Below, piece after piece: positions 1-13,333 of a DNA stretch of 64,000 nt. Each line of letters starts with the position of its first letter. The first letter of the stretch is position 1. Position numbers and translations under genes: made by a program. The DNA comes from Actinomycetota bacterium. GTDB lineage: Bacteria > Actinomycetota > UBA4738 > HRBIN12. The stretch is from NCBI GenBank assembly GCA_040881665.1, contig JBBECT010000007.1, positions 62,001 through 126,000 of the forward strand, read 5' to 3'. The notes below the pieces were generated by a model. The model ran no database searches. It was given only the letters and a program-made list of their open reading frames with translations, and was not told the origin of the DNA.

Positions 1-2
1 AA

Positions 3-398
3 ACACCGAAAAGCGACACCACGTTGGCGAAGAGCAGACGCCTCGACAAACACGCGAGAGACGGGCTAGGTCAGATCCGCGAATGGCGGGAATGGTTGCA
101 GAACAATCTCGACCAAGCTAAGCGACCGCGCTCGGAGGATGGGTTGGGTCTGTTCGACATGAGGCCGCAGGCTGACGGACTGTTGCTCGTCGGCCGAAGA
201 CACAGGCTAGGGACTGACGCTCGCTCCCTCCGGCGTCAACAGGCTGAGGAGAGCCGCGTGACAATTCACACATACGACTGGCTGATCGAGAGCCTCAGGG
301 GGGCCTTGAGCTACGTAGGACCGCCTGGGGCCAACCCGCATCTGATTCATGACTTGCCCTCGTCTGATGGAGGAAGGACCGATGAGTCGAGGGGATAG
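3..398 (+). CDS. Shedu-like (DUF4263) protein, C-terminal part
   Basis: The reading frame is already open at the left edge, so the N-terminus is missing. The visible ~130 residues match the end of the Shedu/DUF4263 family by eye: a GQIREWREWL stretch, a GLLLVGRRHRL segment, and then a TYDWLIESLRG helix. In Shedu proteins the PD-(D/E)XK nuclease core lies in this C-terminal domain, with its acidic and lysine residues just before the QI..W segment; here they would fall outside the window. Shedu is a single-gene anti-phage system. The stop overlaps the start of the next gene by 17 bases, so the two are probably co-translated. The TTG at 24 is not the true start. Confidence 0.6.
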   Translation, partial: TPKSDTTLAKSRRLDKHARDGLGQIREWREWLQNNLDQAKRPRSEDGLGLFDMRPQADGLLLVGRRHRLGTDARSLRRQQAEESRVTIHTYDWLIESLRGALSYVGPPGANPHLIHDLPSSDGGRTDESRG

Positions 399-1332
399 AG
401 GGAAGCTGACGGACGAGCTATACACCACGTCGAGAACGTTCGCCCGGACTTCGATAACAGCCTACGAAGACGATCAAGACAGCGTCTTCCTCCTGCACGC
501 CGCCACAGCTCTCGAGCAACTCGCCAAAGCGTTCCTAGCATCCCAGCACCCTAGCTTGCTCATCGACAAGGACTTCGACGCCCTCTTGCATGTTGTGGGC
601 TTGCCGCAGGCGGCAAAGCGCCCTCCGTCAAGAATGAGAACAGTAGGCATGGAGACCGCCTTGCAGAGGTGCTCCCTATTCGCACCGGCGCTGATGCGAA
701 TGGACCGGGAGCTGAGCACACTCCGGGAGGTCCGCAACGGGCTAGTGCACCTAGGTCGGTCTGCTGAATCATCGTCAGAGGTGCTCCTTCCCTACCTCCA
801 GGCCACGGACATCCTTCTCGCTGAGCTGGCTCAGGGAAACAAGGCCGACTATTGGGGAGACTCCCATCCATTCGTTACGGCGACGCTTTCGGAGGCGGTG
901 GAATCCAACAGGGAGCAGGTCGAGCGGCTATTGAGCGACAGCAGGGCTGCGTTCACTCGTCGGTTCAAAGGCTCCGACCCTTCATGGAAGGAAGAAGTGG
1001 TCACGATCACCGTGTCAGGGTATGACCTCGACAGACTCGAGCGGCAGCTCTATGAGTGTCCAGCCTGCGGTAGTGACGCCCTCGCTGAAGGTCATATCGA
1101 GCCTGACTATGAATTCGACGAGGAAGTAGACGACGGTCAGTTCGTGGTCCACGCGGACTTGAAAGCGCTCTTCTTCTACCCCCAGAGGCTCCAGTGCAGG
1201 GTCTGCGGACTGCACCTGGACGGCCCACAGCAGATCGATGGCGCAGAAGTGCCTTCAAACTGGGAACTCCCCGACCCCAACCTCGACCAGCTCAATGCGT
1301 GGGAAGCGCGGTGGGCTGACGTGGACTACTAA
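382..1332 (+). CDS. HEPN-like protein with C-terminal zinc ribbon
   Basis: The 316-residue protein has an N-terminal helical region with the HEPN look (ALEQLAKAFL near residue 43, then R118-NGLV-H123). The latter fits the R-x4-6-H motif of HEPN ribonucleases. A C-terminal zinc ribbon is formed by CPAC (C226, C229) and CRVC (C272, C275). The start at 382 was chosen over the ATG at 349 because GGAGGAAGG lies just upstream of it. It overlaps the Shedu-like gene by 17 bases, which suggests translational coupling. HEPN proteins often act as RNases in abortive infection or toxin systems; that role here is inferred from the motif and neighbour. It could also be a non-catalytic HEPN scaffold. Confidence 0.55.
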   Translation: MSRGDRGKLTDELYTTSRTFARTSITAYEDDQDSVFLLHAATALEQLAKAFLASQHPSLLIDKDFDALLHVVGLPQAAKRPPSRMRTVGMETALQRCSLFAPALMRMDRELSTLREVRNGLVHLGRSAESSSEVLLPYLQATDILLAELAQGNKADYWGDSHPFVTATLSEAVESNREQVERLLSDSRAAFTRRFKGSDPSWKEEVVTITVSGYDLDRLERQLYECPACGSDALAEGHIEPDYEFDEEVDDGQFVVHADLKALFFYPQRLQCRVCGLHLDGPQQIDGAEVPSNWELPDPNLDQLNAWEARWADVDY

Positions 1333-1356
1333 GCCGATAGCGGCCCGAAACCCCTG

Positions 1357-2607
1357 TCACGGATGGCCACTCCCATTCCCTCCGTACGCCGCGCCGAGAG
1401 CGTCGGCTCCCGCTTCGGTCATCTTCTGCAGCACGTGTTGATACTGGTCCGCCGTGAAGCTCGAACTTGAGTGTCCCAACATCGCGCTCGCAACCTTCAC
1501 CTCGACACCCGCCTCGAGGAGCTGAGTCGCGGCCGCGTGTCGGAGTCCGTGGAGACTCAGGCTGCTGGGCAGTCCGGCGTTCTTGGCGATCCGCTTGAAG
1601 GCGTGGGTGAACCCGTCGGGATCGAGCGGTCCCCCGTCACCCCGATCGCACACCAGATCGGCTGTGGCCCATTCGCGGTCACTCCCGATGAGGAGCAAAC
1701 GGCGGCGCTGCTCGGCCCGGTGACGACGCAGGAACGCAACCAGCGCCGGCGGGATCGAGAGTCGGCGGTGGGCGTTCTCGGTTTTCGGCTCGACGAGCTC
1801 GAGCGGTTGACCCGATGCAGGACGCTGCAGCGCTCGCGAGATCGCCAGAGATCCACGTCCCTCGGACGGGAGATCGAAGTCCGACCATGCCAGGCCCAGC
1901 ACCTCACCGCGACGTGCACCCGTGAACGCCGCGATCGTCAACGGTGCGACCCACGGGGTTCCCTCGGCGCGCTGGAGAAGAGTACGCACCTGTTCGGCCG
2001 TCGGGGGTGTCACCTTGCGGCGCGAGCCAACGGGAGATCGCGAGACGCGCGCCACGTTGATGCTGATGAGCCCGGCTCCGGCCGCGTCCTGTAGCGCTCG
2101 ACCCATGAGCGCGCGAGCCTGCTTCTGACTCGACGCTGAGAGCCCGCGTGCAGCCATTGCGTCCATGACGCTGTTGATCTCGGCGGCTCGGACCTTCACC
2201 AGCCGCACACCCCCGATCGCTGGCACGATGTCGTTCGCGATGAGCTGTTCGTACCGTTGGGCGGTCCGCGGCCGAAGTTCCTTTCGCGCGATCCGATCCG
2301 CGAGCCACCGACGTAGGTAGTCACTGATCGTCTCGTCGCTCGGGATCGGATCCCCACCCTGGTCGAGCCTGCGGAGCTCCGCCTCGCGTGCCGCCTCCGC
2401 ATCCTTCTTCAACGCGAACCCCGCCTGCCACCGCTGGCGCCGTTCGGGCCGCGGCTCTGTGAGCGTTCCCCCGCACCGAGGGCAGAGTTCAGCCGGGCGA
2501 CGCTCCACCCATGTCCGCCGGGCGCACTCGTTGCAGCGCTGGGCGAGCTGATCGCCGAGATCCAGGTAGTACTCCCAAGTCGAGCGATGCCGGATGAAGT
2601 TCTTCAC
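1357..2607 (-). CDS. int: Tyrosine site-specific integrase with N-terminal zinc ribbon
   Basis: The 416-residue protein catalyses integration and excision of the element. The catalytic set is visible: R232 in GARRGEVLGL, K275, H353 and R356 in HGLRH, H379 in LGHSS, and nucleophile Y389. Residues ~90-170 look like the SAM-like core-binding domain. The N-terminus carries a C25-x2-C28 ... C42-x2-C45 zinc ribbon where an arm-binding domain is usual. The gene starts with GTG, and its first base is the last base of the upstream regulator's stop codon (TAGTG), so it is probably translationally coupled to that gene. Its 3' end faces the left edge of the window, where attL is expected. Confidence 0.9.
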   Translation of the reverse strand: MKNFIRHRSTWEYYLDLGDQLAQRCNECARRTWVERRPAELCPRCGGTLTEPRPERRQRWQAGFALKKDAEAAREAELRRLDQGGDPIPSDETISDYLRRWLADRIARKELRPRTAQRYEQLIANDIVPAIGGVRLVKVRAAEINSVMDAMAARGLSASSQKQARALMGRALQDAAGAGLISINVARVSRSPVGSRRKVTPPTAEQVRTLLQRAEGTPWVAPLTIAAFTGARRGEVLGLAWSDFDLPSEGRGSLAISRALQRPASGQPLELVEPKTENAHRRLSIPPALVAFLRRHRAEQRRRLLLIGSDREWATADLVCDRGDGGPLDPDGFTHAFKRIAKNAGLPSSLSLHGLRHAAATQLLEAGVEVKVASAMLGHSSSSFTADQYQHVLQKMTEAGADALGAAYGGNGSGHP

Positions 2608-3365
2608 TACGGCTCCTCTCCTTCTTCAGGTTGCGCAGCGTCGCGCTTCCCCGCCACGGTCCCTCGGAATGTCAGTGGGTATCGACGACCACGCTCATCG
2701 CGGCGCGGGTCCTGCCACGGATCCTCCCCCACCTCCTCGAGCAGTCCCTTGCGGCGTGCACGGCGCACGTGTTCAGTGGCCTGCTGAGTCGAAAGACCGA
2801 ACAGCTCTGCGATGTGCTTGCTCGTGGACAACCCGCTGTTGTGAGCGAACCTCCACGCCTTCGCGATCGCTTCATAGTGCTCCATCGAGTAGATGGGGGG
2901 CCGACCACGTCGAGGCTCAGAGACGACGGGTTCGATCAATCTGTCGATCCCAGCGTCCTTGAACGCCTGTCCCCGACTGGCGTAGTCGACAAAGAAGTCA
3001 CCGACGTCCTCACGTTCGGGGATGTCCAGATTTCGCCGGACCTGCTCGCGCCGCCACATTCTTAGGGCGAGATCGACCTCATCCGCGACAAGACGCTTTG
3101 CCTCCTCGATCAACTTGCCAGCGGGCACCTCTTTGATCACCGATGCGGTGACGCCTCGCTGGACGTCGTCCGGACCCGGAAAGTTGCGGAACCCGACATC
3201 GAAGGACCCGCGAAGGTAGCCCCGCACATCGAAGCCAATCGCGACAACCGCGCCTCGCACAAGTCCGAGGCGAACTGCGACAAGCCATTTTCGGCCTCGA
3301 CGGTCCTCCCACTCGATTGGCACCTCCCCGAGATCCGTCACCCCATGACCGTAGTGTTTCACCAT
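2607..3365 (-). CDS. Putative regulator with C-terminal helix-turn-helix
   Basis: This 252-residue protein is not assigned to a named family. Residues ~165-210 read as a helix-turn-helix (SGLSTSKHIAELFGLS followed by a basic recognition-like helix), and a GRPPIYS motif precedes it. The N-terminal half is a mixed alpha/beta region of unknown role. It lies directly upstream of the integrase with a 1-base overlap and is transcribed divergently from the XRE/excisionase operon. It is therefore a good candidate for the regulator of integration or lysogeny, possibly acting at the palindrome 57 bases upstream. That role is inferred from position only. Confidence 0.55.
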   Translation of the reverse strand: MVKHYGHGVTDLGEVPIEWEDRRGRKWLVAVRLGLVRGAVVAIGFDVRGYLRGSFDVGFRNFPGPDDVQRGVTASVIKEVPAGKLIEEAKRLVADEVDLALRMWRREQVRRNLDIPEREDVGDFFVDYASRGQAFKDAGIDRLIEPVVSEPRRGRPPIYSMEHYEAIAKAWRFAHNSGLSTSKHIAELFGLSTQQATEHVRRARRKGLLEEVGEDPWQDPRRDERGRRYPLTFRGTVAGKRDAAQPEEGEEP

Positions 3366-3421
3366 TCACTATGCAAGGGCGGCGCAAGATTAGACCACGC
3401 TACAAGCCTCTGAGTAGGTAC

Positions 3422-3442
3422 TATGGTGTAAGGTACACCATA
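3422..3442. promoter_or_regulatory. Perfect 9-bp inverted repeat, probable operator
   Basis: TATGGTGTA, a 3-base AGG spacer, then TACACCATA form a perfect dyad. It lies in the only sizeable divergent intergenic region of the element, between the int regulator (start 3365, minus) and the XRE gene (start 3494, plus). This is where a lysogeny-type switch would sit. Either flanking HTH protein could be the ligand. Confidence 0.6.
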
Positions 3443-3493
3443 ACGCGGCCCTCTACTGTTGAAAGCCCCCGGCGAGGGATCCACTCTCTCCGC

Positions 3494-3733
3494 ATGGTTA
3501 CTTCGATAGACGACCTTGCCGAATTGCAGGCAATCCACGACTTGATCCGAAGCGGTGGCGCCCGCGCGCTTCGCGTCCGTGCCGGAAGGTCGCTCGGTGA
3601 GCTCGGACGCAGCATCGGAACCGACGCCTCGCAGATCAGCCGTTGGGAAACAGGCCGAACGATGCCACGCCCGGCAAATGCGAAGCGTTATGCGGCGGCG
3701 TTGCGCGTTCTCGGGTGGGAGCGCCTGCCATGA
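3494..3733 (+). CDS. XRE-family helix-turn-helix regulator
   Basis: The 79-residue protein is a single Cro/C1-type HTH domain. RAGRSLGELGRSIGTD and ASQISRWETGR form the two helices plus the ISRWE(T)G signature, and MPRPANAKRYAAAL closes the fold. There is no separate oligomerisation domain. The ATG at 3494 was chosen because it begins just before the conserved fold; the longer frame from 3317 would run through the operator. It is the first gene of a plus-strand chain (XRE, excisionase, 131-residue protein, primase) in which each gene overlaps the next. It probably controls that operon through the palindrome at 3422-3442. Confidence 0.75.
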   Translation: MVTSIDDLAELQAIHDLIRSGGARALRVRAGRSLGELGRSIGTDASQISRWETGRTMPRPANAKRYAAALRVLGWERLP

Positions 3734-3942
3734 ACCTCGCAGAACTCCGCGAGAGCGGTCTTGCAACGATTTCCATCGAGCAGGCCGTGGAGCCGGGCCT
3801 TCTGCACCTTTCGCGCGGCCTCGGCTACAGGTTGGCGCGCAGTGGACAATTGCCCGGCGCAATTCGCCTTGGTCGCCGCTGGAGGGTATCGGTGCCAGCT
3901 CTCATTCGCGCGCTCGAGAGAGATAGCGAGGCGGCCAGGTGA
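3730..3942 (+). CDS. xis: Excisionase-like DNA-binding protein
   Basis: The 70-residue protein resembles the excisionase/MerR-type winged HTH (HTH_17). It has a helix entered by SRGLGYRLARSGQLPG, then AIRLGRRWRVSVPALI, which is the usual strand-turn-helix that ends such domains. These proteins act as recombination directionality factors or as small regulators. The start ATG overlaps the stop of the XRE gene (ATGA), and its own stop overlaps the next start. It sits across the operator from the integrase, the usual place for an excisionase. Confidence 0.7.
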   Translation: MNLAELRESGLATISIEQAVEPGLLHLSRGLGYRLARSGQLPGAIRLGRRWRVSVPALIRALERDSEAAR

Positions 3943-4334
3943 GAACAACAATCCTGGAGCGAGTCGCGGAATACCGAACGACGAGTCGCAGGATCGTGTC
4001 GGCACCGTCATCGTTGAAGAAGCGCTGCCAGGTTCTGCTCGAACTTGTCGCAGCGCTCGCGGATGAAGACGACGAAGCTACGCGTGAATGGTGCCGCCAG
4101 GCGATATGGGAGGAGTCGCGGGCGTTCCTGGGGCTCGGGGATCCGGAGCCCGCTGGCGGTCCTAGCGATCCTTGGGCACGGAAGCAACGAGCGATCCGCG
4201 CGGAGGGGTTCTCTACCTGCCCGAGGTGCGCGGCAAGGATCGCAACCGACGAGGAACTGCGCCGTCTCAGCGTCTCGTGGGTGCGCTGGGCACAGGAGAC
4301 CTCAGCGCGGGAGAGGGCGGTGCGCGATGCGTGA
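3939..4334 (+). CDS. Small element protein with CxxC motif, unknown function
   Basis: The 131-residue protein was not recognised. The N-terminal half is helical (ERVAEYRTTSRRIV; LLELVAALADEDDEATREW). Residues ~95-100 contain a single CPRC pair, which may bind zinc only as a dimer or with other ligands. It starts with GTG overlapping the excisionase stop by 4 bases and ends 8 bases inside the primase gene. It is thus translated as part of the replication operon and may be a primase accessory protein; this is inference from position. Confidence 0.5.
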   Translation: MRTTILERVAEYRTTSRRIVSAPSSLKKRCQVLLELVAALADEDDEATREWCRQAIWEESRAFLGLGDPEPAGGPSDPWARKQRAIRAEGFSTCPRCAARIATDEELRRLSVSWVRWAQETSARERAVRDA

Positions 4335-6186
4335 CATATCCGAGATCGCGATCGAGGCCTACTCTCCGGCGGCCGTGGCGGAGGAGCTGGTCGTCCCGCC
4401 TCCGTCCAACCCGATGGCTGTCGCCAGCATGTTCCTTGAGAACGACTACACCAAGAACGGTACGGTGCTCCTCCGCCACCACCGGAACACCTTCCACGGC
4501 TACGACGGGGTGAGCTGGCCGGAAATCGAAGAAGCACGCCTTCGGGCTGACGTGTATCAGTGGCTCGCTCCAGCGAAGTACTGGAAGACCACCTCGAAGC
4601 TGCCCGAGCTCGTGGAATTCGAACCCACTCAGCGAAAGATTCGCGACTTGATCGAGGCGATCAAGGCACACTGTCACCTCGACGGTCACGTTGCACCGCC
4701 GGCATGGCTTGACGGCACCACCGACGTCGACGTCGTGCCGATGGCGAATGGGCTACTGAGCGTCGGGACGCGCGAGCTCCTGCCGCATACGCCTGACTAC
4801 TTCTCACCCTACGTGCTGCCCTTTGACTACAAACCGAATGAGCCGAATCCGTCCCGGTGGCTCGCATTCCTTGAGGAGCTATGGCCCGATGAGCCGAATT
4901 CGCGCGAGACGCTCGCGGAGATCGTCGGCTACATCCTCGGGGGTGGAACGGCGCTGCAGAAGATCTTTCTCGTGGTCGGGCCGAAGCGCTCCGGCAAGGG
5001 CACGATCGGCCGCGTACTGACCGGGTTGCTGGGCTCGCACAACGTCGCCGCTCCCACCCTGTCGGGCATGACCACGAACTTCGGCCTCCAGCCGCTGATC
5101 GGACGACCCCTGGCCCTCGTTAGCGACGCGCGACTCGGAACGCGAGCCGACGCGTCGGTTGCGGTCGAGCGGCTCCTATCGGTGTCGGGCGAAGACTCGA
5201 TCACTATCGACCGCAAGTACCGCGACCCTTGGACAGGCCGACTACCGAGCAGGTTCCTGGTGATGACGAACGAGATCCCGAGGTTCACAGACTCCTCCGG
5301 TGCCCTCGCCTCCCGGTTCGTCATCCTGACCATGTCCAAGTCGTTTCTCGGTTGTGAGGACCCGATGTTGACGGACCGGCTCCTGGCCGAGTCGCCGGGC
5401 ATCCTCAACTGGGCCCTCGACGGTCTTGAGCGACTGCAGGGCCGCGGCTACTTCGAGCAGCCTGCTTCGGCCGCGTCGGCCCTCGAGCGCCTCGAAGACC
5501 TAGCGTCGCCGGTCGGTGCGTTCGTCCGGGATTGCTGCGTGGTCGACTCGGCCCAAGAGGTCACGAAGGACGCGCTGTGGTCGGCCTGGAAGGACTGGTG
5601 CGCGGATCAGGGGCGGGATCGACCGGGGACCAAGGCAGTGTTCTTCCGGGACCTCGCCGCCGCATACCCGGGTATTCGGGCACACCGGAGACGCGAGGCG
5701 AGTTCCCGCGTCCACGTGTACTCGGGGATCGGACTCCGTGGTCCCGATGATCCAGACGAAGAGTGGGCACAACAAGGAAGTGAACCTCTGACCACCCCTG
5801 ACCAGGGCCATGAACAGCGGGAGCCCGTTGTCCCGCATAGAACCGCGGTCAGGGGTCCGGACCCGATCGAGACGATGCAAACTCCAAGCTCAGAGGGGGT
5901 GGTCAGGGGTGGTCGGGGGTCGGACGCACTGTATCCGTCCGACGAGGCACGGGTCCGGGTCGACCCTGCCTCCAACGACCCACACGTCGTCGTTCCTGGT
6001 GAGCAGGACCTCGTCCAGTACCAAGAGCCCGACTCGAGGCCCTCCGGGACCCTCGAGGTCACCCCACCGTGGAGGCTCACCGGCGATGATTCCGAAGCCT
6101 ACGAGACCCTTGAGCGATACCTTGGCCCGCTCTCATTCGACGCCACGGATGGCGGTCGAACCAGGATTGCGGAGCCAATCTCATGA
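4327..6186 (+). CDS. D5-type primase/SF3 helicase (P4-like replication protein)
   Basis: The 619-residue protein matches the D5_N plus SF3 helicase architecture of plasmid, phage and satellite replication proteins. The Walker A loop is GPKRSGKGT (~218-226), and the sensor segment is VMTNEIPRF followed by GALASRF. The N-terminal polymerase-type primase domain of P4 alpha is absent, so priming may come from the host. The last ~150 residues are low-complexity and contain the DNA repeats listed separately. The start at 4327 overlaps the preceding gene by 8 bases; a longer frame from 4045 would lie almost wholly inside that gene and is rejected. It probably unwinds the element's origin after excision. 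Confidence 0.8.
   Translation: MRDISEIAIEAYSPAAVAEELVVPPPSNPMAVASMFLENDYTKNGTVLLRHHRNTFHGYDGVSWPEIEEARLRADVYQWLAPAKYWKTTSKLPELVEFEPTQRKIRDLIEAIKAHCHLDGHVAPPAWLDGTTDVDVVPMANGLLSVGTRELLPHTPDYFSPYVLPFDYKPNEPNPSRWLAFLEELWPDEPNSRETLAEIVGYILGGGTALQKIFLVVGPKRSGKGTIGRVLTGLLGSHNVAAPTLSGMTTNFGLQPLIGRPLALVSDARLGTRADASVAVERLLSVSGEDSITIDRKYRDPWTGRLPSRFLVMTNEIPRFTDSSGALASRFVILTMSKSFLGCEDPMLTDRLLAESPGILNWALDGLERLQGRGYFEQPASAASALERLEDLASPVGAFVRDCCVVDSAQEVTKDALWSAWKDWCADQGRDRPGTKAVFFRDLAAAYPGIRAHRRREASSRVHVYSGIGLRGPDDPDEEWAQQGSEPLTTPDQGHEQREPVVPHRTAVRGPDPIETMQTPSSEGVVRGGRGSDALYPSDEARVRVDPASNDPHVVVPGEQDLVQYQEPDSRPSGTLEVTPPWRLTGDDSEAYETLERYLGPLSFDATDGGRTRIAEPIS
5784..5920. repeat. Five-copy decamer array (GGTCAGGGGT), candidate iterons
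   Basis: The decamer GGTCAGGGGT or a one-mismatch copy occurs five times: a tandem pair on the minus strand (5784-5793 GGTCAGAGGT, 5794-5803 exact), one plus copy (5847-5856 exact), and a tandem plus pair (5901-5910 exact, 5911-5920 GGTCGGGGGT). The gaps are 43 and 44 bases, so the layout is symmetric about the single copy. It lies in the low-complexity 3' end of the replication gene, where the protein sequence tolerates repeats. This resembles an iteron origin; function is inferred. Confidence 0.6.
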
Positions 6187-6188
6187 TC

Positions 6189-6214
6189 GCGGCGGCCCGT
6201 CCGGGCCCGGCCGC
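6189..6214. terminator. GC-rich hairpin after the primase gene
   Basis: GCGGCGGCCC, a GTCC loop, and GGGCCCGGCCGC form a strong stem with a two-base bulge just after the primase stop. There is no T-tract, so it may be a weak or Rho-assisted terminator, or only an mRNA-stabilising hairpin. The rest of the gap to 6352 shows no gene. Confidence 0.35.
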
Positions 6215-6352
6215 GACCCCTCGGCACCCCACCTTGCCCCGCGACCCATCGGAGCAGCGAACTACGAATTCGTCGGGCATTCCATCGCCGCAGGTCGCGG
6301 GGGTCGGAATTGCCCCGTGTCAACGGCGGGTCAACGACCCAGGTGCCGCAGC

Positions 6353-7273
6353 ATGAGCGCCCGGTGCAGGGCCCACAGTTCCCGCTCAGGCGACCCGTGC
6401 AAGGCGTATGCGATGGCTGGCACGACCGTCTGTGCTGCCCACGGGGGCAAGGCTCCTCAAGTCCGGCTGGCCGCGCGTCGCCGCTTGGCCGGGCAAGACG
6501 CGGCTCGGATGCTGGCCGATGTGCAGGTCCAGCCGGTCGACGATCCAATCATCGAGCTCCAGGCGTTGGCCGGCGAGGCATTGGCCTTGAAGTCGTTCTT
6601 CGCCGACCGGGTGGCAGCCATCGAGCGCACCTCCTCGGCGGAGGATCGCGTGGGGCTCGACACCCTCGCCCAGCTGAAGACGATCAACGCTGCAGCAGTG
6701 ACGGTCATGCGCGATGCCCGGGCGAGGCAGGATCTCGACGCCGTGCTCGGCGCGTCCGATCGCATTCTCTCCCAGCTCCGCGACCAGGGGCGGCTCCTGG
6801 CCAGCCTGAGCCAACCGCCGCAGGTGCAGGCCGAGTTGGATCTCTACCTCGCGGCTCTCGATCGAAGCGAGCGCTTCCTGCGCGATCTCGCGGCCCTGGG
6901 CCTGGACGAACGCCGTGTGCGCCTCGCCGAGCGGCAGGGGGAACTGGTAGCCGACGTGTTGCGTGCGTCGATGGCCGCAGTCCTGGTCCTGGTCCGCGAG
7001 TCCCTTGCCGCCGGCACCTTCACGCCAGAACGCCTCGAACAGATCGAACGCGAGGAGGCCCCGGCGATCATGCGGGGAAAGCTCCTCCTGGCACTTCCCT
7101 CGGGCCATCCCCGTCCGTCCGGTTCGGCCGAAGGCGAGCGGGCGAAGGAGCGGCAGCGCGAGCACGGGGCAACCGCACCCGGGCGACCCGCAGACAACAC
7201 TGGCGACCGTTCGTCGCAAGTGTCCCGCTCCTACGAGGAACGCACGGACGTGAAGGTCGGATCCGATGGCTGA
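6353..7273 (+). CDS. Small-terminase-like protein with HGG zinc finger
   Basis: The 306-residue protein begins with a compact Cys/His cluster: C5, H8, C16, C27, H30 followed by GGKAPQVR. Such 'C..HGG' fingers are common at the start of phage small-terminase-like and related phage proteins. The middle (~60-230) is long and helical, probably coiled-coil, as expected for a protein that forms an oligomeric ring. It overlaps the large terminase start by 8 bases. The start at 6353 was taken because the homologous finger begins there; the frame from 5810 overlaps the primase. The terminase-small role is inferred from the neighbour and finger, not from a recognised family. Confidence 0.5.
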   Translation: MSARCRAHSSRSGDPCKAYAMAGTTVCAAHGGKAPQVRLAARRRLAGQDAARMLADVQVQPVDDPIIELQALAGEALALKSFFADRVAAIERTSSAEDRVGLDTLAQLKTINAAAVTVMRDARARQDLDAVLGASDRILSQLRDQGRLLASLSQPPQVQAELDLYLAALDRSERFLRDLAALGLDERRVRLAERQGELVADVLRASMAAVLVLVRESLAAGTFTPERLEQIEREEAPAIMRGKLLLALPSGHPRPSGSAEGERAKERQREHGATAPGRPADNTGDRSSQVSRSYEERTDVKVGSDG

Positions 7274-8891
7274 TAGACCACACCCGTTCGAGATCGCAGC
7301 CGGGTTGATCTCGCCGCAGCCGGATCCGTTCGCCGACCGCTACTGGTCCGACCCCGCCGCCTTCGCTCGCGAGTGCATCTCCTGGCCCGATGGAACCGTG
7401 CTTGCCGACTTCCAGGGCGAGATCCTGACGAGGCTCGTGAAACACCGCCGACTCGCGGTCCGGGGACCGCACGGGTTGGGAAAGACCGCGACCGAGGCAA
7501 TCGCGGTGCTCTGGTTTGCCCTAACACGTGACGCTGCTGGAACGGACTGGAAGTGTCCGACAACCGCGGGCGTGTGGCGGCAACTCGAGAAGTTCGCCTG
7601 GCCGGAGATACATCGATGGGCAGGACGGCTCAACTGGCGGCAGATTGGACGCGACCCGTTCACTCGTCACGAGCTTGGCGTCCTGACATTGAGGCTCCGA
7701 CACGGTGAAGCGTTCGCGCTGGCGTCGGACGATCCGGCTGCGATCGAAGGTGCGCACGCCACACAACTGCTCTACGTCCTCGACGAGGCCAAGGCGATCC
7801 CCGCGGCAACCTACGACGCCACCGAAGGTGCGTTCGCGGGAGCCGGTGACGACACGGAGTCGCAGGCGTTCGCCCTCGTGACATCGACTCCCGGTGAACC
7901 CTCGGGTCGCTTCTACGCGATCTCCCGGCGCGAACCGGGGCTTGAAGATTGGAGCGCCTACCACGTCAAGCTCGATCAGGCGGTCGAGGCAGGTCGTATC
8001 TCGCGCAGCTGGGCGGAACAGCGCCGCGTTCAGTGGGGGTCCACATCTGCGGTGTTCCAGAACCGTGTCCTCGGGGAGTTCGCCTCGAGCGCGGAGGACA
8101 CGATCATTCCCCTCGCGTGGGTGGAGGCAGCGACTGAACGGTGGCCCACGGCGCACCCGGATTGCGGCTGGAACGAGGGCGAACACAGCGGCTGTCGGTC
8201 CGCTCCGGCGGGCAAGGTGGTCGTGGGAGTCGATGTCGGTCGGGGTGGCGATCGGAGCGTGTTGGCGCTGCGCCAGGGAGACTCGATCGACGAGCTGCGC
8301 CGATCGTCAAGTGCCGATCTGATGCACACTGTGGGGCGTGTGCGGGGCGTGCTAGACGCCTACGGGGGCCAAGCGGTCATCGACGTGATCGGCATCGGCG
8401 CGGGCGTTGTCGATCGTCTCCGAGAGAACGCGAAGCTGCGGCCTCGGATCCATCCGTTCAATGCCTCTGCCGGTACCAGCGTGCGCGACCACAGTGGCGA
8501 GCTCCGGTTCGTGAACCTCCGCGCGGCCGCATGGTGGCGCCTGCGAGAGCTGCTTGACCCGACAGGTGATCGCGAGATAGCGCTTCCGCCCGACGACAGC
8601 CTCATCGGGGACCTCTCCGCGCCCCGCTGGCGGGTCACATCCGCAGGCAAAATCCAAGTCGAGTCGAAGACTGAGATTCGCAAACGGCTCGGGAGGTCCA
8701 CCGACGACGGCGACGCGGTCGTGATGGCCTTCTGGGGCCAGGGGGCTCGGCGCCCACAGTTCCGCATCGCGTCTTCGGCGCGACCAACACGGGTAGGAGC
8801 TCGCAGACGCTACTCGCTGCCGCGAGTCGCCAGTGTCGGTCCTTGGCCCACCGATCCAACTCGTGATGCGATCGGAAGGCGCATCCAATGA
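7266..8891 (+). CDS. terL: Phage terminase large subunit
   Basis: The 541-residue protein has the two domains of TerL. The ATPase has Walker A GPHGLGKT (67-74) and Walker B LLYVLDE (168-174, with D173 and E174). The C-terminal RNase H-like nuclease opens with VVVGVDVGRGGDRSVLAL (first catalytic Asp near 323) and ends near STDDGDAVVMAF, a fitting late Asp motif. TerL cuts concatemeric DNA and pumps it into proheads. No portal, capsid, protease or tail gene follows; the next gene is a convergent restriction gene. The element may therefore divert packaging into a helper phage's particles, as satellites do. Confidence 0.8.
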   Translation: MADRPHPFEIAAGLISPQPDPFADRYWSDPAAFARECISWPDGTVLADFQGEILTRLVKHRRLAVRGPHGLGKTATEAIAVLWFALTRDAAGTDWKCPTTAGVWRQLEKFAWPEIHRWAGRLNWRQIGRDPFTRHELGVLTLRLRHGEAFALASDDPAAIEGAHATQLLYVLDEAKAIPAATYDATEGAFAGAGDDTESQAFALVTSTPGEPSGRFYAISRREPGLEDWSAYHVKLDQAVEAGRISRSWAEQRRVQWGSTSAVFQNRVLGEFASSAEDTIIPLAWVEAATERWPTAHPDCGWNEGEHSGCRSAPAGKVVVGVDVGRGGDRSVLALRQGDSIDELRRSSSADLMHTVGRVRGVLDAYGGQAVIDVIGIGAGVVDRLRENAKLRPRIHPFNASAGTSVRDHSGELRFVNLRAAAWWRLRELLDPTGDREIALPPDDSLIGDLSAPRWRVTSAGKIQVESKTEIRKRLGRSTDDGDAVVMAFWGQGARRPQFRIASSARPTRVGARRRYSLPRVASVGPWPTDPTRDAIGRRIQ

Positions 8892-8948: not shown

Positions 8949-11465
8949 TTATCCCCCGGCGCCTTCACTCAAGTCCTGCGGAGCGAAGACCAACTCAAGC
9001 TCACCGACATCCGTTGCGCTCAGCTTCCTGTACTCCGTCTGTGGCACCTTGAAGTAAGTCCACGGCGTTCCTGTCAACAGGGTGGCGTTCTCACACCAAA
9101 TTGCCGCCGCTCGATCCTTGTGTGCAACATCTACATCCTCACGGCCCTTGGTCTCGACTAGGAGATGCTGATCCCCAGGCTTTCGGCAAACGAAGTCCGG
9201 TTCGTAGAAGCGAAGGTTGCCAACCGAGTCCGTGTACTCGATGAAGAATCCAAACTGGCTCGGAAGCTTTGCGAAGGAGACAACGTCCTTCGCGTTCTCC
9301 AGGAACTCTGCGAAGTCACGCTCGAACTGGTTGTCGCAAGGCACCAGGTTGAACACGCACTTCTTGGCGTCGAAGGTCGGGCGCGAGTACGGGAAGGGTG
9401 GTGTCTCGGATAGCTTCCTCCCTTCGCTTAGCAGCTCAGGAGCGAGTTCTTCGATAACCAACCCGCGCAGGGCTTGAGAAAACGCCTTGATGGTTACGTA
9501 CTGGGCCACGGGAGTTGAGATGGCGCGGATCATCACCGGGGTGCCGAGCTCCACTGTGTTACCGAAGGCTTTCGTCTCCAGGAACTCGCGTACCTTTGGT
9601 GCCAGCGCCGAGAACTGTGAAGGCAGCTTTACGTCATTCGCGATCCGCCTGGAGTAGTAGCTGATGACTTCCTCTGCCGTCTGTGGCTGAGGAATCGTGT
9701 AGTCGCGTTCCACGAGCTTCTGGAGGCTGATGATGTCGTAGCCCTCGTACTTGAACCTCTGGGCAGCCGCATCACCGTCGCTCTCAGGAAACACAGGGCT
9801 CTGGAACTGCGAGACATCGAGACCGGCGATTTCCTCAGTCAGCGTCTTCTTGCGAGACAGAATCGGACTCAGCACTGGGACGGCGATGTCGTGCTCCATC
9901 CTCTCTTCAGCGGGGAAGATGGTCGTGATGACGAGCTTGTCTTTCTTAAGATCGAACTCCTGAACCGCGATGTCTTCGTCCTTCTCAAGCTGGTCGATGA
10001 ACTTCAGGAAAGGGCCGTTGCCAATGACATCGACCCGCTCGACGTAGGTGGACGCAACCCCTCTGAACATCAGCCGCAGCCCACGACCGATGGCCTGCTC
10101 CGGAAGGATGTTGGCCGAGGCTGTGAAAGGCCTGAGCCCCACCACGACGGTGACGCTCTGAACATCCCAGCCCTCGCGGAGCATGAGGACGCTAACGATC
10201 GCGTTGACCGGACTCTCCCCCTCGTCAACCTGCCGCGCGACGGCCCTAGCTCGGTCGAGGTCCTTCTTCGAGACTTGCCCCTGATTGTTCGTGTGAATGA
10301 TGAGCAGCTTCTCGTCCCCGAACTCTTCCGGGTACTTGGTCCGCAGGTACTCGCCCACGTCCTCGGCGTCCGCAGTAGTGTTCATCATCACGAACATGAT
10401 GGGTTTCTTCTTGACTTGCTTGAGTTGGTCGCGGTACTCGCGCCACCGTTCCACGCCAGCGGTCAAGTACGCCCTGTACCGCACGCTTGCGACATCTGAA
10501 GGCTGATCCTTCATTCCAGCCGCTACGCCCTTCATGGGGCGCTTCACAACACTGTCCAGGATCGCCTGCTTCAGGGGGTAGTCGAAGACCGTCCAGGTGA
10601 ACAGGCCGCCCTTCGCGTACCTCGGTGTCGCGGAGAAGTCCAGTTGTGAAGTGATGCCGGGACCGAGGTCGGCGTTTAGGGTCCGGATCACCTTGTTCCA
10701 TTCGTTCTCTTCGTCGTGGGTGTGGTGTGCCTCATCGTTGACGACTAGGCACGGCGCGTCGCGGGCGAGGATGCGACCACAGAAGTCCTCGCTATCCGTG
10801 AGTTGCGTCGGTGGCTTCGGGCCGAGTACAGCTGTGAGATCGGCAGGCTCGTTCGTGTCCTCCTTGGAGCCCCTCCCCCCATACAGTTGGTCGATATTCG
10901 TAAGGAACATGGAGCCCTGCGAAGAAGGACCTTCTGCATCCCCGCGCATGAAGAAGCTCATGTCCCAGAACACCGACAGCGGGGGCGGGATGATGGGGTC
11001 CGTTCGGAAGACGCGTCCGCCTTCGAAGTCAAGTCTGAGGCGCTCGAATACGATCACGTTGGGCGCTATGACTAGGAACGTCTTAGCAAAGTCATCCCTT
11101 CCTTCCGCGACGGCGTTGAAGTAGTGCCAGGCGACCGCGAGCGCCATCACCTTCGTCTTGCCACTTCCGGTCGCCATCTTGATGCTGTACCTAGCGAAGT
11201 CGTCACGGTTGAGGAGAGCGATGTCCGGCTGGCCCGTGACGAAGGTTTCGAGCAGTTCCTTATGGCGACGAACCTTGACGACCTCGTAGAGATATATGAG
11301 CGTCTCGATTGCCTCGCGCTGAAAGTGGTGATATCGGAACATTGAGCCGGACTGGAGTCGGTGATCAGTTCCGAACCAGTGATTGAGGAGCGTCCGCGTT
11401 GTGTCAGTCACTCCCTTGTAGCCAGAAGATCGCCACTCTTCGACTGCCAATCTGATGGCTGGCAC
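8949..11465 (-). CDS. res: Type III restriction endonuclease, Res subunit
   Basis: The protein (838 residues from the GTG at 11465) is an SF2 translocase-nuclease that cleaves after collision at unmodified type III sites. Motifs seen are Walker A MATGSGKTK (~98-106), the DEAH box in NDEAHH (~244-249), helicase motif VI-like EQAIGRGLRLMFR, and a C-terminal PD-(D/E)XK nuclease (EPDF then LVETKG). The frame stays open upstream to the mod stop, and good sequence (ESLLEAKVSTAP) precedes the GTG. A CTG at 11492-11494 after AGGAG could be the true start. It lies 71 bases downstream of mod on the same strand. Confidence 0.85.
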   Translation of the reverse strand: MPAIRLAVEEWRSSGYKGVTDTTRTLLNHWFGTDHRLQSGSMFRYHHFQREAIETLIYLYEVVKVRRHKELLETFVTGQPDIALLNRDDFARYSIKMATGSGKTKVMALAVAWHYFNAVAEGRDDFAKTFLVIAPNVIVFERLRLDFEGGRVFRTDPIIPPPLSVFWDMSFFMRGDAEGPSSQGSMFLTNIDQLYGGRGSKEDTNEPADLTAVLGPKPPTQLTDSEDFCGRILARDAPCLVVNDEAHHTHDEENEWNKVIRTLNADLGPGITSQLDFSATPRYAKGGLFTWTVFDYPLKQAILDSVVKRPMKGVAAGMKDQPSDVASVRYRAYLTAGVERWREYRDQLKQVKKKPIMFVMMNTTADAEDVGEYLRTKYPEEFGDEKLLIIHTNNQGQVSKKDLDRARAVARQVDEGESPVNAIVSVLMLREGWDVQSVTVVVGLRPFTASANILPEQAIGRGLRLMFRGVASTYVERVDVIGNGPFLKFIDQLEKDEDIAVQEFDLKKDKLVITTIFPAEERMEHDIAVPVLSPILSRKKTLTEEIAGLDVSQFQSPVFPESDGDAAAQRFKYEGYDIISLQKLVERDYTIPQPQTAEEVISYYSRRIANDVKLPSQFSALAPKVREFLETKAFGNTVELGTPVMIRAISTPVAQYVTIKAFSQALRGLVIEELAPELLSEGRKLSETPPFPYSRPTFDAKKCVFNLVPCDNQFERDFAEFLENAKDVVSFAKLPSQFGFFIEYTDSVGNLRFYEPDFVCRKPGDQHLLVETKGREDVDVAHKDRAAAIWCENATLLTGTPWTYFKVPQTEYRKLSATDVGELELVFAPQDLSEGAGG

Positions 11466-11536
11466 ACACGGCGCGGTCGAAACCTTGGCCTCGAGCAGGC
11501 TCTCCTGACCCCGCGACTTCCTTTCGGTAGACAGAG

Positions 11537-13333
11537 TCAGTTCACCTCGATCACGATCGTCTTCGTCGTGTCGTTGCCGAGAATGTCGATAACCTTCACG
11601 ACAATCCGATAGGTGCCAGGAGCCGAATACGCATGGCTAGTCTGGACATCTAGCTTCTCGTTGTGGCGGGAGCGGAAAGCCTGCCACTCATTGTGGAATG
11701 CGTCGCCCTTGTTGTCCCAGTCCACGGCCCAGTAGTCGATCCACTCGGACCATTTCTTGATCCTGTTTTGGACGTCCTCCGGCACGTCGTCCACCGGTAT
11801 GACAAAGTTGGTGAGCTTCAAGGTTACCGTCTGCTTCTTGACACTCGCATTAACGGCCAACGCGGCCAGTTCAAAGAAGAGCACATCACCTTGCTCAACC
11901 GCGCGCTTGTCGAGAACCTCCCGCGGGATCCTGACGAAGTGAAGCGAAATGTTCGCTTCGGCCGCCTTTTGCGAGGCGACCTCATGGACCTCGAATGCGA
12001 AGTCCCATCCCAACACATCGATTGCAGCGGGGTTCCCTTTGGCTGGACCGACTGCCCTACTCGCTTCAACGATGATGTTGGTCACGTCGCTCATCGTTAC
12101 GGGCGCGTCAACCGAGCCGACATGAACCATCGCACCCGATTTCACCCCGTGAATCCATGCGGAGCCTTCCAAAGACGTCGCCTTGTATAGATCCAGTATG
12201 AGCTTCCTATAGGCGACCGTTCGTGCCTCGGCATCCGAGCCGAACTCCGACTCCTGCCAGAGCTGACGTTCGTACTTTCCGAGGTTCTGCACTTCGAACG
12301 GCGTGACATTTTCAACGCGTAGTAATCGCTTCCTCGTCGTGTGGACAGAGAATCGGCTTAGGTCGCAGGCTATCCAGCGTCGCCCCAACAACTCGGCCGC
12401 TTCGGCAGTAGTCCCGCTGCCCACAAAGCAATCGAGAACCAAATCGTCCTCTCTTGACGAGGCTCGGATGATCCGTTCCACGATGGATCGGCGCTTCTGC
12501 GTCGGGAAGCCAAGATTCTCGGTCCGGTCGGCTGGTTGCAGCATGGGCACGCGCCACACATCGTCCGCCGTCCGCTCGTCGGTCTCTTGATATACGACGT
12601 GCCCTTGCTCATCCTTGGTGTTGACGAGCTTTCCCTCCTTCGAGTCCCACTCTCTCCGAAGCTGCTTGACCTTTCCCTCTGGACGCTTTTCCTTCTGGGG
12701 CGTGAACGAGTACTCATCGGACTTCGAGTACCAGAAGATCACGTCGTGGTTCGATGCGAACCTATTCACATTCCCTTGAAACTTGTTGTAGTAGTGCCAG
12801 ACGATCTCGTTCCGAAAGTTGTCCTGCCCAAACACCTCATCCAGAATGGCCTTCGCATAATGCCCGACGTGCCAATCCAGATGAACGTAGATGGACCCGT
12901 TGTGAGAGAGCAGCTCGTACAAGTACTGGACTGAATCAGCGAACCAGATCAAGTAGCTGTCGAGCCCCTTCCCCCATGTGTCTCGGTATGCCTTGACCTC
13001 GATGAGAGAGGGCTCCTTAACGAAATCATCTCCGTTCAGTCGAACAGGAAGAGAGAAGTCCTGTCCGCTCGCGAAAGGCGGATCGATATAGACAAGGTCG
13101 ACGCGCCCTGCGAACTCCGGTAGCAACGAGGGAAGCACGTACTTCTTGTCACCCCAGATGAGGCGGTTCCGCCACTCTGGGTCCTTGCTGGCGGAGTAGA
13201 GATCGAGAGCGTGCTGCCGTTGCTGCGCCGACTCGTTCACTGTTTCGACGGTCTGGAACGGGAGAGCGGCCTTCAGAGGCGCTCTTCGGTGTCCACCAGC
13301 ATCGTATTTGCCCTCCCACACCAGTTCTGCCAA
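11537..13333 (-). CDS. mod: Type III DNA methyltransferase, Mod subunit
   Basis: The 598-residue protein is an amino-methyltransferase of the beta class. The catalytic DPPF motif (D84-F87) comes first, and the AdoMet-binding FVGSG motif (in VLDCFVGSGTTAEAAELLG) comes ~220 residues later. The target recognition region lies between them, as in type III Mod proteins. The C-terminal ~200 residues are the Res-interaction part. Mod alone methylates adenine at a short asymmetric site and, with Res, forms the restriction complex. The gene is first in the mod-res operon and its promoter should lie in the 330-base gap upstream. Confidence 0.85.
   Translation of the reverse strand: MAELVWEGKYDAGGHRRAPLKAALPFQTVETVNESAQQRQHALDLYSASKDPEWRNRLIWGDKKYVLPSLLPEFAGRVDLVYIDPPFASGQDFSLPVRLNGDDFVKEPSLIEVKAYRDTWGKGLDSYLIWFADSVQYLYELLSHNGSIYVHLDWHVGHYAKAILDEVFGQDNFRNEIVWHYYNKFQGNVNRFASNHDVIFWYSKSDEYSFTPQKEKRPEGKVKQLRREWDSKEGKLVNTKDEQGHVVYQETDERTADDVWRVPMLQPADRTENLGFPTQKRRSIVERIIRASSREDDLVLDCFVGSGTTAEAAELLGRRWIACDLSRFSVHTTRKRLLRVENVTPFEVQNLGKYERQLWQESEFGSDAEARTVAYRKLILDLYKATSLEGSAWIHGVKSGAMVHVGSVDAPVTMSDVTNIIVEASRAVGPAKGNPAAIDVLGWDFAFEVHEVASQKAAEANISLHFVRIPREVLDKRAVEQGDVLFFELAALAVNASVKKQTVTLKLTNFVIPVDDVPEDVQNRIKKWSEWIDYWAVDWDNKGDAFHNEWQAFRSRHNEKLDVQTSHAYSAPGTYRIVVKVIDILGNDTTKTIVIEVN

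Follow-up and report, generated by a model that had tools for sequence, protein, structure and literature searches.

An array of five decamers in the 3' end of an SF3 helicase gene is very probably the replication origin of a small mobile element, of the same kind as the crr region of P4, and would be bound by the helicase that this gene encodes. The array lies in a 64,000-nucleotide stretch of DNA, here called the window, and the features that bear on it are collected in Table 1. We further consider it reasonably likely that the P4-family helicases of phages, plasmids, satellites, and archaea share one origin design, in which mirrored tandem sites one helical turn apart lie directly 3' of the winged-helix codons and are read by the wing. 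The wing and its sites would be exchanged together, as a single specificity cassette by which an element's replication identity is rewritten, and the "stem-loop" of the plasmid pRN1 would be the same thing.

The element (1357-8891) is small and is called satellite-like because it contains an integrase, two small regulators, a helicase, and a terminase large subunit. No capsid genes were seen nearby. Its ends were not found, in that positions 1-3000 and the rest of the window share no att-like direct repeat of at least 16 nt, and no tRNA was found near the integrase. The adjoining segment (8949-13333) holds two large minus-strand open reading frames that resemble, by eye, the res and mod genes of a type III restriction-modification system.

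Table 1. Positions in the window of the element's genes, the winged helix, and the decamer sites
Feature	Position	Strand	Remarks
Tyrosine integrase of the element	1357..2607	-	
HTH (XRE-type) regulator	3494..3733	+	
Small HTH_17 protein, excisionase/regulator-like	3730..3942	+	E 6.9e-6, just under the Pfam cut-off
SF3 helicase, phage/plasmid primase P4 family, 619 aa	4327..6186	+	TIGR01613, D5_N, DUF5906
C-terminal RFX-like winged helix, ~residues 392-470, proposed site reader	5500..5736	+	AlphaFold, Foldseek, HMM
Wing, ~residues 450-466	5674-5724	+	
Whole array, proposed origin/cis-required region of the element	5784..5920	.	
Left tandem pair, ACCTCTGACC ACCCCTGACC	5784..5803	-	spacing 10 bp
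Site 1	5784-5793	-	one mismatch
Site 2	5794-5803	-	
Site 3, central single, GGTCAGGGGT	5847-5856	+	
Right tandem pair, GGTCAGGGGT GGTCGGGGGT	5901..5920	+	spacing 10 bp; inverted relative to the left pair
Site 4	5901-5910	+	
Site 5	5911-5920	+	one mismatch
GCACTGTATCC, directly 3' of the array	5926..5936	+	codons ALYP
Terminase large subunit	7266..8891	+	phrog_2

The decamer array and the helicase

The five decamers were confirmed where the preliminary description had placed them, three of them exact and two with one mismatch, and the gaps flanking the central copy are 43 and 44 nt. The word itself is not rare. At up to one mismatch it has 7 matches in the window against 5.6 expected, and the exact decamer occurs 8 times in the 2.46-Mb genome (3 in the array and 5 as singletons elsewhere), compared with 7 times for the reversed control pattern. 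It is the clustering of the decamers, rather than the word, that is significant. The 15-mer TGACCACCCCTGACC has two genome-wide occurrences at up to one mismatch, both in the array, and synonymous codon resampling of the helicase tail gave five copies in none of 3000 trials, with a maximum of 4 that was reached in 43 trials. The earlier judgment that chance is unlikely is thus upheld. The peptides encoded at the decamers are EPLT, TPDQ, AVRG, VVRG, and GRGS. Selection on the protein cannot make the decamers, because the tandem copies fall in different codon frames and the array uses both strands.

The helicase matches the TIGR01613 profile with 170.2 bits against a cut-off of 108.7, and its predicted fold matches the SaPI and D5-type primase-helicases. 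No primase family was detected in the 619-residue protein or in the 131-residue product of the upstream gene. The winged-helix domain is predicted by AlphaFold with a pLDDT of about 90. Among the Foldseek matches listed for it, only those to the DNA-binding domains of RFX5 (8zjr) and RFX1 (1dp7) are significant; the RFX match was also found by a sequence profile (HMM), and the P4 origin-binding domain itself is not among the 50 matches listed. RFX1 uses its wing to read the major groove of DNA (PMC8998557). The origin-binding domain of P4 has been assigned to the RFX1 fold group (PMC10516667).

Layout of the sites in related loci

Relatives of the helicase were found in bacterial genomes, viral contigs, plasmids, and phages. 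The preliminary description had suggested looking for the same decamer at the same place in related elements. The word is absent from the relatives examined, none of which keeps the decamer array itself, and many of them have the tandem-inverted layout instead. Conservation was therefore sought as layout rather than as sequence. When clusters of 9-mers were searched for, most relatives proved to have a repeated word of their own at this position. A strict test was then defined, which calls for two copies 9-12 bp apart and two inverted copies within 250 nt, and it was applied to the 600 nt surrounding the winged-helix end. The strict layout was found in 45 of the 70 related loci, no more than about 450 nt from where the winged-helix domain ends, and in none of 700 Markov simulations of random sequence. 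In 400 kb of flanking control sequence, 7 clusters pass the test, several of which are themselves arrays. On a graded score, 49 of the 70 loci rank above all of their shuffles (20 per locus). The strict layout is absent from 25 of the 70 loci, some of which have weaker arrays.

The 45 arrays are located inside the reading frame (13), after the stop codon (24), or across it (8), and thus it is the DNA layout that is conserved and not the peptide. The site word differs between elements and mostly fits xxxGNNYCA. Of 78 arms, 75 have a spacing of 9 or 10 bp, which corresponds to roughly one turn of DNA, and the spacing is equal in both arms of 36 of 39 arrays. In many arrays the two arms have unequal copy numbers, central copies are present, or an arm contains 3-7 copies in tandem. 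L003 and L011, which have one and the same sequence, are the nearest relatives; at the corresponding position they carry two copies of ATCCCGGCCC, one of GGGCCGGGGT, and two of GGGCCGGG(A/G)T. The symmetry emphasized in the preliminary description holds for the mirrored outer pairs, which are conserved, but not for the exact centring of the middle copy, which is off-centre in L003. Loss of the decamers beside a retained protein had also been put forward as evidence against function. The decamer does change, yet the layout persists beside the same domain, and so the loss of the word is the wrong test. The segment GCACTGTATCC was considered as a conserved downstream motif and rejected, since it is identical only in the L003/L011 sequence and the other relatives are without it.

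The circular plasmids L021 and L022 both carry an array. L022 is a 27-kb circular Pseudonocardia plasmid with a primase-polymerase, a P4-family helicase, the array, and a terminase gene. Loci L020 and L080 have no downstream array; instead, an eight-copy GTGTCACCG array lies upstream, about 1.7 kb before the end of the helicase. In the Bradyrhizobium plasmid L026, which also has a major capsid gene and is phage-plasmid-like, an array of TGTTGCCGT lies 1283 nt after the helicase.

Covariation and exchange of wing and sites

Mutual information over all columns was diffuse (winged helix-turn-helix against the rest, p 0.03), and for this reason partial Mantel tests and tree-based pairs were used. 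With the ATPase part of the protein held constant, the distances between sites correlate with those between wings (r 0.31, p 0.0005; 46 loci with hand-curated site registers). The corresponding value for the helices of the winged helix-turn-helix and the sites, from the same number of loci and again with hand-curated registers, is 0.10 (p 0.12). Residue 461 is R or K in 17 of the 18 loci with G at core base 1, and Q in all 19 loci with A at this base; overall, Q goes with A or T there. Q at residue 454 is confined to loci with G at core base 2, where it occurs in 5 of 6. The association of residue 461 involves 9-10 changes on the tree. About 5 of 7 independent tree pairs agree in direction and almost none are opposed, with a median p of 0.06, these pairs being too few for significance alone. 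In the sequences compared, the correlation of site and wing is partly phylogenetic.

As far as the recognition helix, the genes of three sister Streptomyces pairs share 81-93% identity. In the same pairs, the wing is 68-76% identical and the first 200 nt beyond it, which hold the array, 34-53%. L075 and L074, which are less closely related and have the same sites, are 82-85% identical throughout the wing and array. Streptomyces L075 has GGCCCA sites and the wing RPRAPSGERIATY, and Streptomyces L069 has TCTCA sites and the wing RPRDEHGRQVLTY. The pattern in the three sister pairs is most simply explained by a joint replacement of wing and array. One crossover can replace the reader together with its sites, because the array is directly 3' of the wing codons and, in many relatives, lies within the coding sequence.

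Origin function, alternatives, and known origins

The earlier proposal of an origin recognized by its own helicase is supported by the comparative evidence, namely a layout kept beside the same protein domain, and the array is accordingly described as a putative origin. In the proposed mechanism, the C-terminal RFX-like winged helix of the helicase, and chiefly its wing, would bind the decamers. At each tandem pair, two helicase molecules would sit on the same face of the DNA, separated by one helical turn, and the facing pairs would seed two helicase rings of opposite orientation. Opposed rings are known for other SF3 initiators. The rings would then melt the DNA between or beside the pairs, and replication would start. 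We infer direct binding, the loading of hexamers, and origin activity of the array. The DNA between the arms is 64% G+C and not AT-rich; no AT-rich melting region was found there, and the arrays of the family display no trend toward one.

The helicase might instead bind the array to limit replication or the expression of downstream genes, with replication starting elsewhere. P4 offers some precedent for such a copy-number control site or autoregulatory operator, since its crr is a cis region separate from its ori and is not the start point, and the array here is located between the helicase gene and the downstream genes. However, no second array or promoter-proximal copy at up to one mismatch was found in the element, and the annotated origins of the phages Sfi21, Sfi11, and A2, as well as the transplantable element of pRN1, share the position and the layout. 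We regard this explanation as unlikely. Slightly less likely still is a hairpin or cruciform, formed by the 21-nt arms and itself recognized, as proposed for pRN1. The two arms (5784-5804 and 5900-5920) are 90% complementary, the array strand folds better than shuffled sequences (z -3.6), and the equal spacing of the two arms across the family is in keeping with a stem. A mutation in the pRN1 stem is rescued only by a mutation that restores the symmetry (PMC4234260). The arms are nevertheless internally periodic, each with two units of 9-10 bp, which a hairpin does not need, and the unequal, central, and multiple tandem copies of many arrays are not those of a simple stem. Core mismatches are uncompensated outside Streptomyces (10 in pairing copies and 12 in non-pairing copies), although one Streptomyces group displays mirrored differences. 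Hairpin formation at the RNA level is unsupported by the types of mismatch, which show no preference for G-U on the transcript strand (11, compared with 18 on the other strand).

Two other explanations carry far less weight. The sites could belong to another DNA-binding protein, either the XRE or the HTH_17 protein encoded beside the helicase, or to a helper phage. This is quite improbable, given that loci from different phages, plasmids, and genomes, gathered by the helicase alone, have the array beside it, and that wing and array covary and are exchanged together. The prospect that the repeats arose by chance or from a low-complexity coding sequence is negligible. The tail of the helicase is indeed poorly ordered in the predicted model, and the one-mismatch decamer is common in the window, but this explanation is refuted by the codon resampling, by the different frames and strands of the copies, and by the 24 relatives with the same layout after the stop codon.

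The recognition of mirrored sites by the wing would provide a sequence rule for finding origins in a very large group of mobile elements, few of which have had their origins mapped so far, and it predicts which wing residues set the identity of the origin. It makes the choice between a hairpin and paired binding sites testable for elements such as pRN1. It also offers a reason for origins that are found at the end of, or inside, the initiator gene: reader and sites are linked and can be swapped by one crossover.

Any claim that the array is unlike known systems has to be corrected, because the P4 crr, the origins of Sfi21, Sfi11, and A2, and pRN1 are close precedents. This kind of origin is already known. 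What appears to be new is the rule of a reader-plus-site cassette, together with the interpretation of the pRN1 stem as paired sites; no prior statement of either was found in the open-licence literature. The P4 crr, like the array here, is directly 3' of the gene for a P4-family SF3 helicase (alpha), and has two tandem sites at 9-bp spacing, followed after a gap of about 36-43 bp by inverted sites. Its iterons are at 4314 and 4323 (+) and at 4366 and 4384 (-), in a region read in two copies. P4 itself failed the strict test because its second pair is 18 bp apart, and a DNA query of plasmids with the P4 crr returned no matches. Alpha has a C-terminal winged-helix origin-binding domain, as is predicted for the helicase here. 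The differences are that alpha has a fused primase, which is absent here, and that the P4 crr follows the stop codon, whereas the array is inside the reading frame. P4 has two cis regions (ori and crr), and no second cluster at up to one mismatch is present in the window. The type I iterons of P4 are GGTGAACA-like, compared with GGTCAGGGGT here and different words again in the relatives.

In the Streptococcus phages Sfi21 and Sfi11 and in the Lactobacillus phage A2, the annotated origins start where the helicase ("primase") gene has its 3' end and, like the array, have inverted tandem pairs with spacings of 8-12 bp. These origins differ in their AT-rich spacer, in their repeats (TTAGTTAC or ACGGGAGGAT), and in being located after the gene and not inside it. 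Among solved helicases, PriRep1 of SaPI (7ola) is nearest in sequence (E 3e-23) and ranks with the best matches in fold, but it has a fused primase that the helicase here is without. SaPI origins have iterons around an AT-rich stretch, and such a stretch is absent from the array. Phage lambda likewise has its origin iterons within the gene for its initiator, O; however, O is not a helicase, and the iterons are longer and in direct orientation. Classical iteron plasmids of the Rep_3 type have long direct iterons and a WH1-WH2 Rep protein, in contrast to the 10-bp sites in mixed orientation and the SF3 helicase of this element.

The archaeal plasmid pRN1 of Sulfolobus (L085) has a 100-bp stem-loop, 54 bp 3' of its helicase gene, that is required for replication and works when moved, and that was described by its authors as lacking an iteron structure (PMC4234260). 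We find that its 21-nt arm TTATGTCCATAGTGTCCAACT consists of TGTCCA twice at a spacing of 9 bp, inverted in the other arm (5084-5104 and 5163-5183), and for this reason the stem can be read as paired binding sites. Its helicase, ORF904, has a fused primase, whereas the element described here is from a bacterial genome and its helicase is without one. The arms of pRN1 nonetheless have the same length as those of the array, and the layout is the same.
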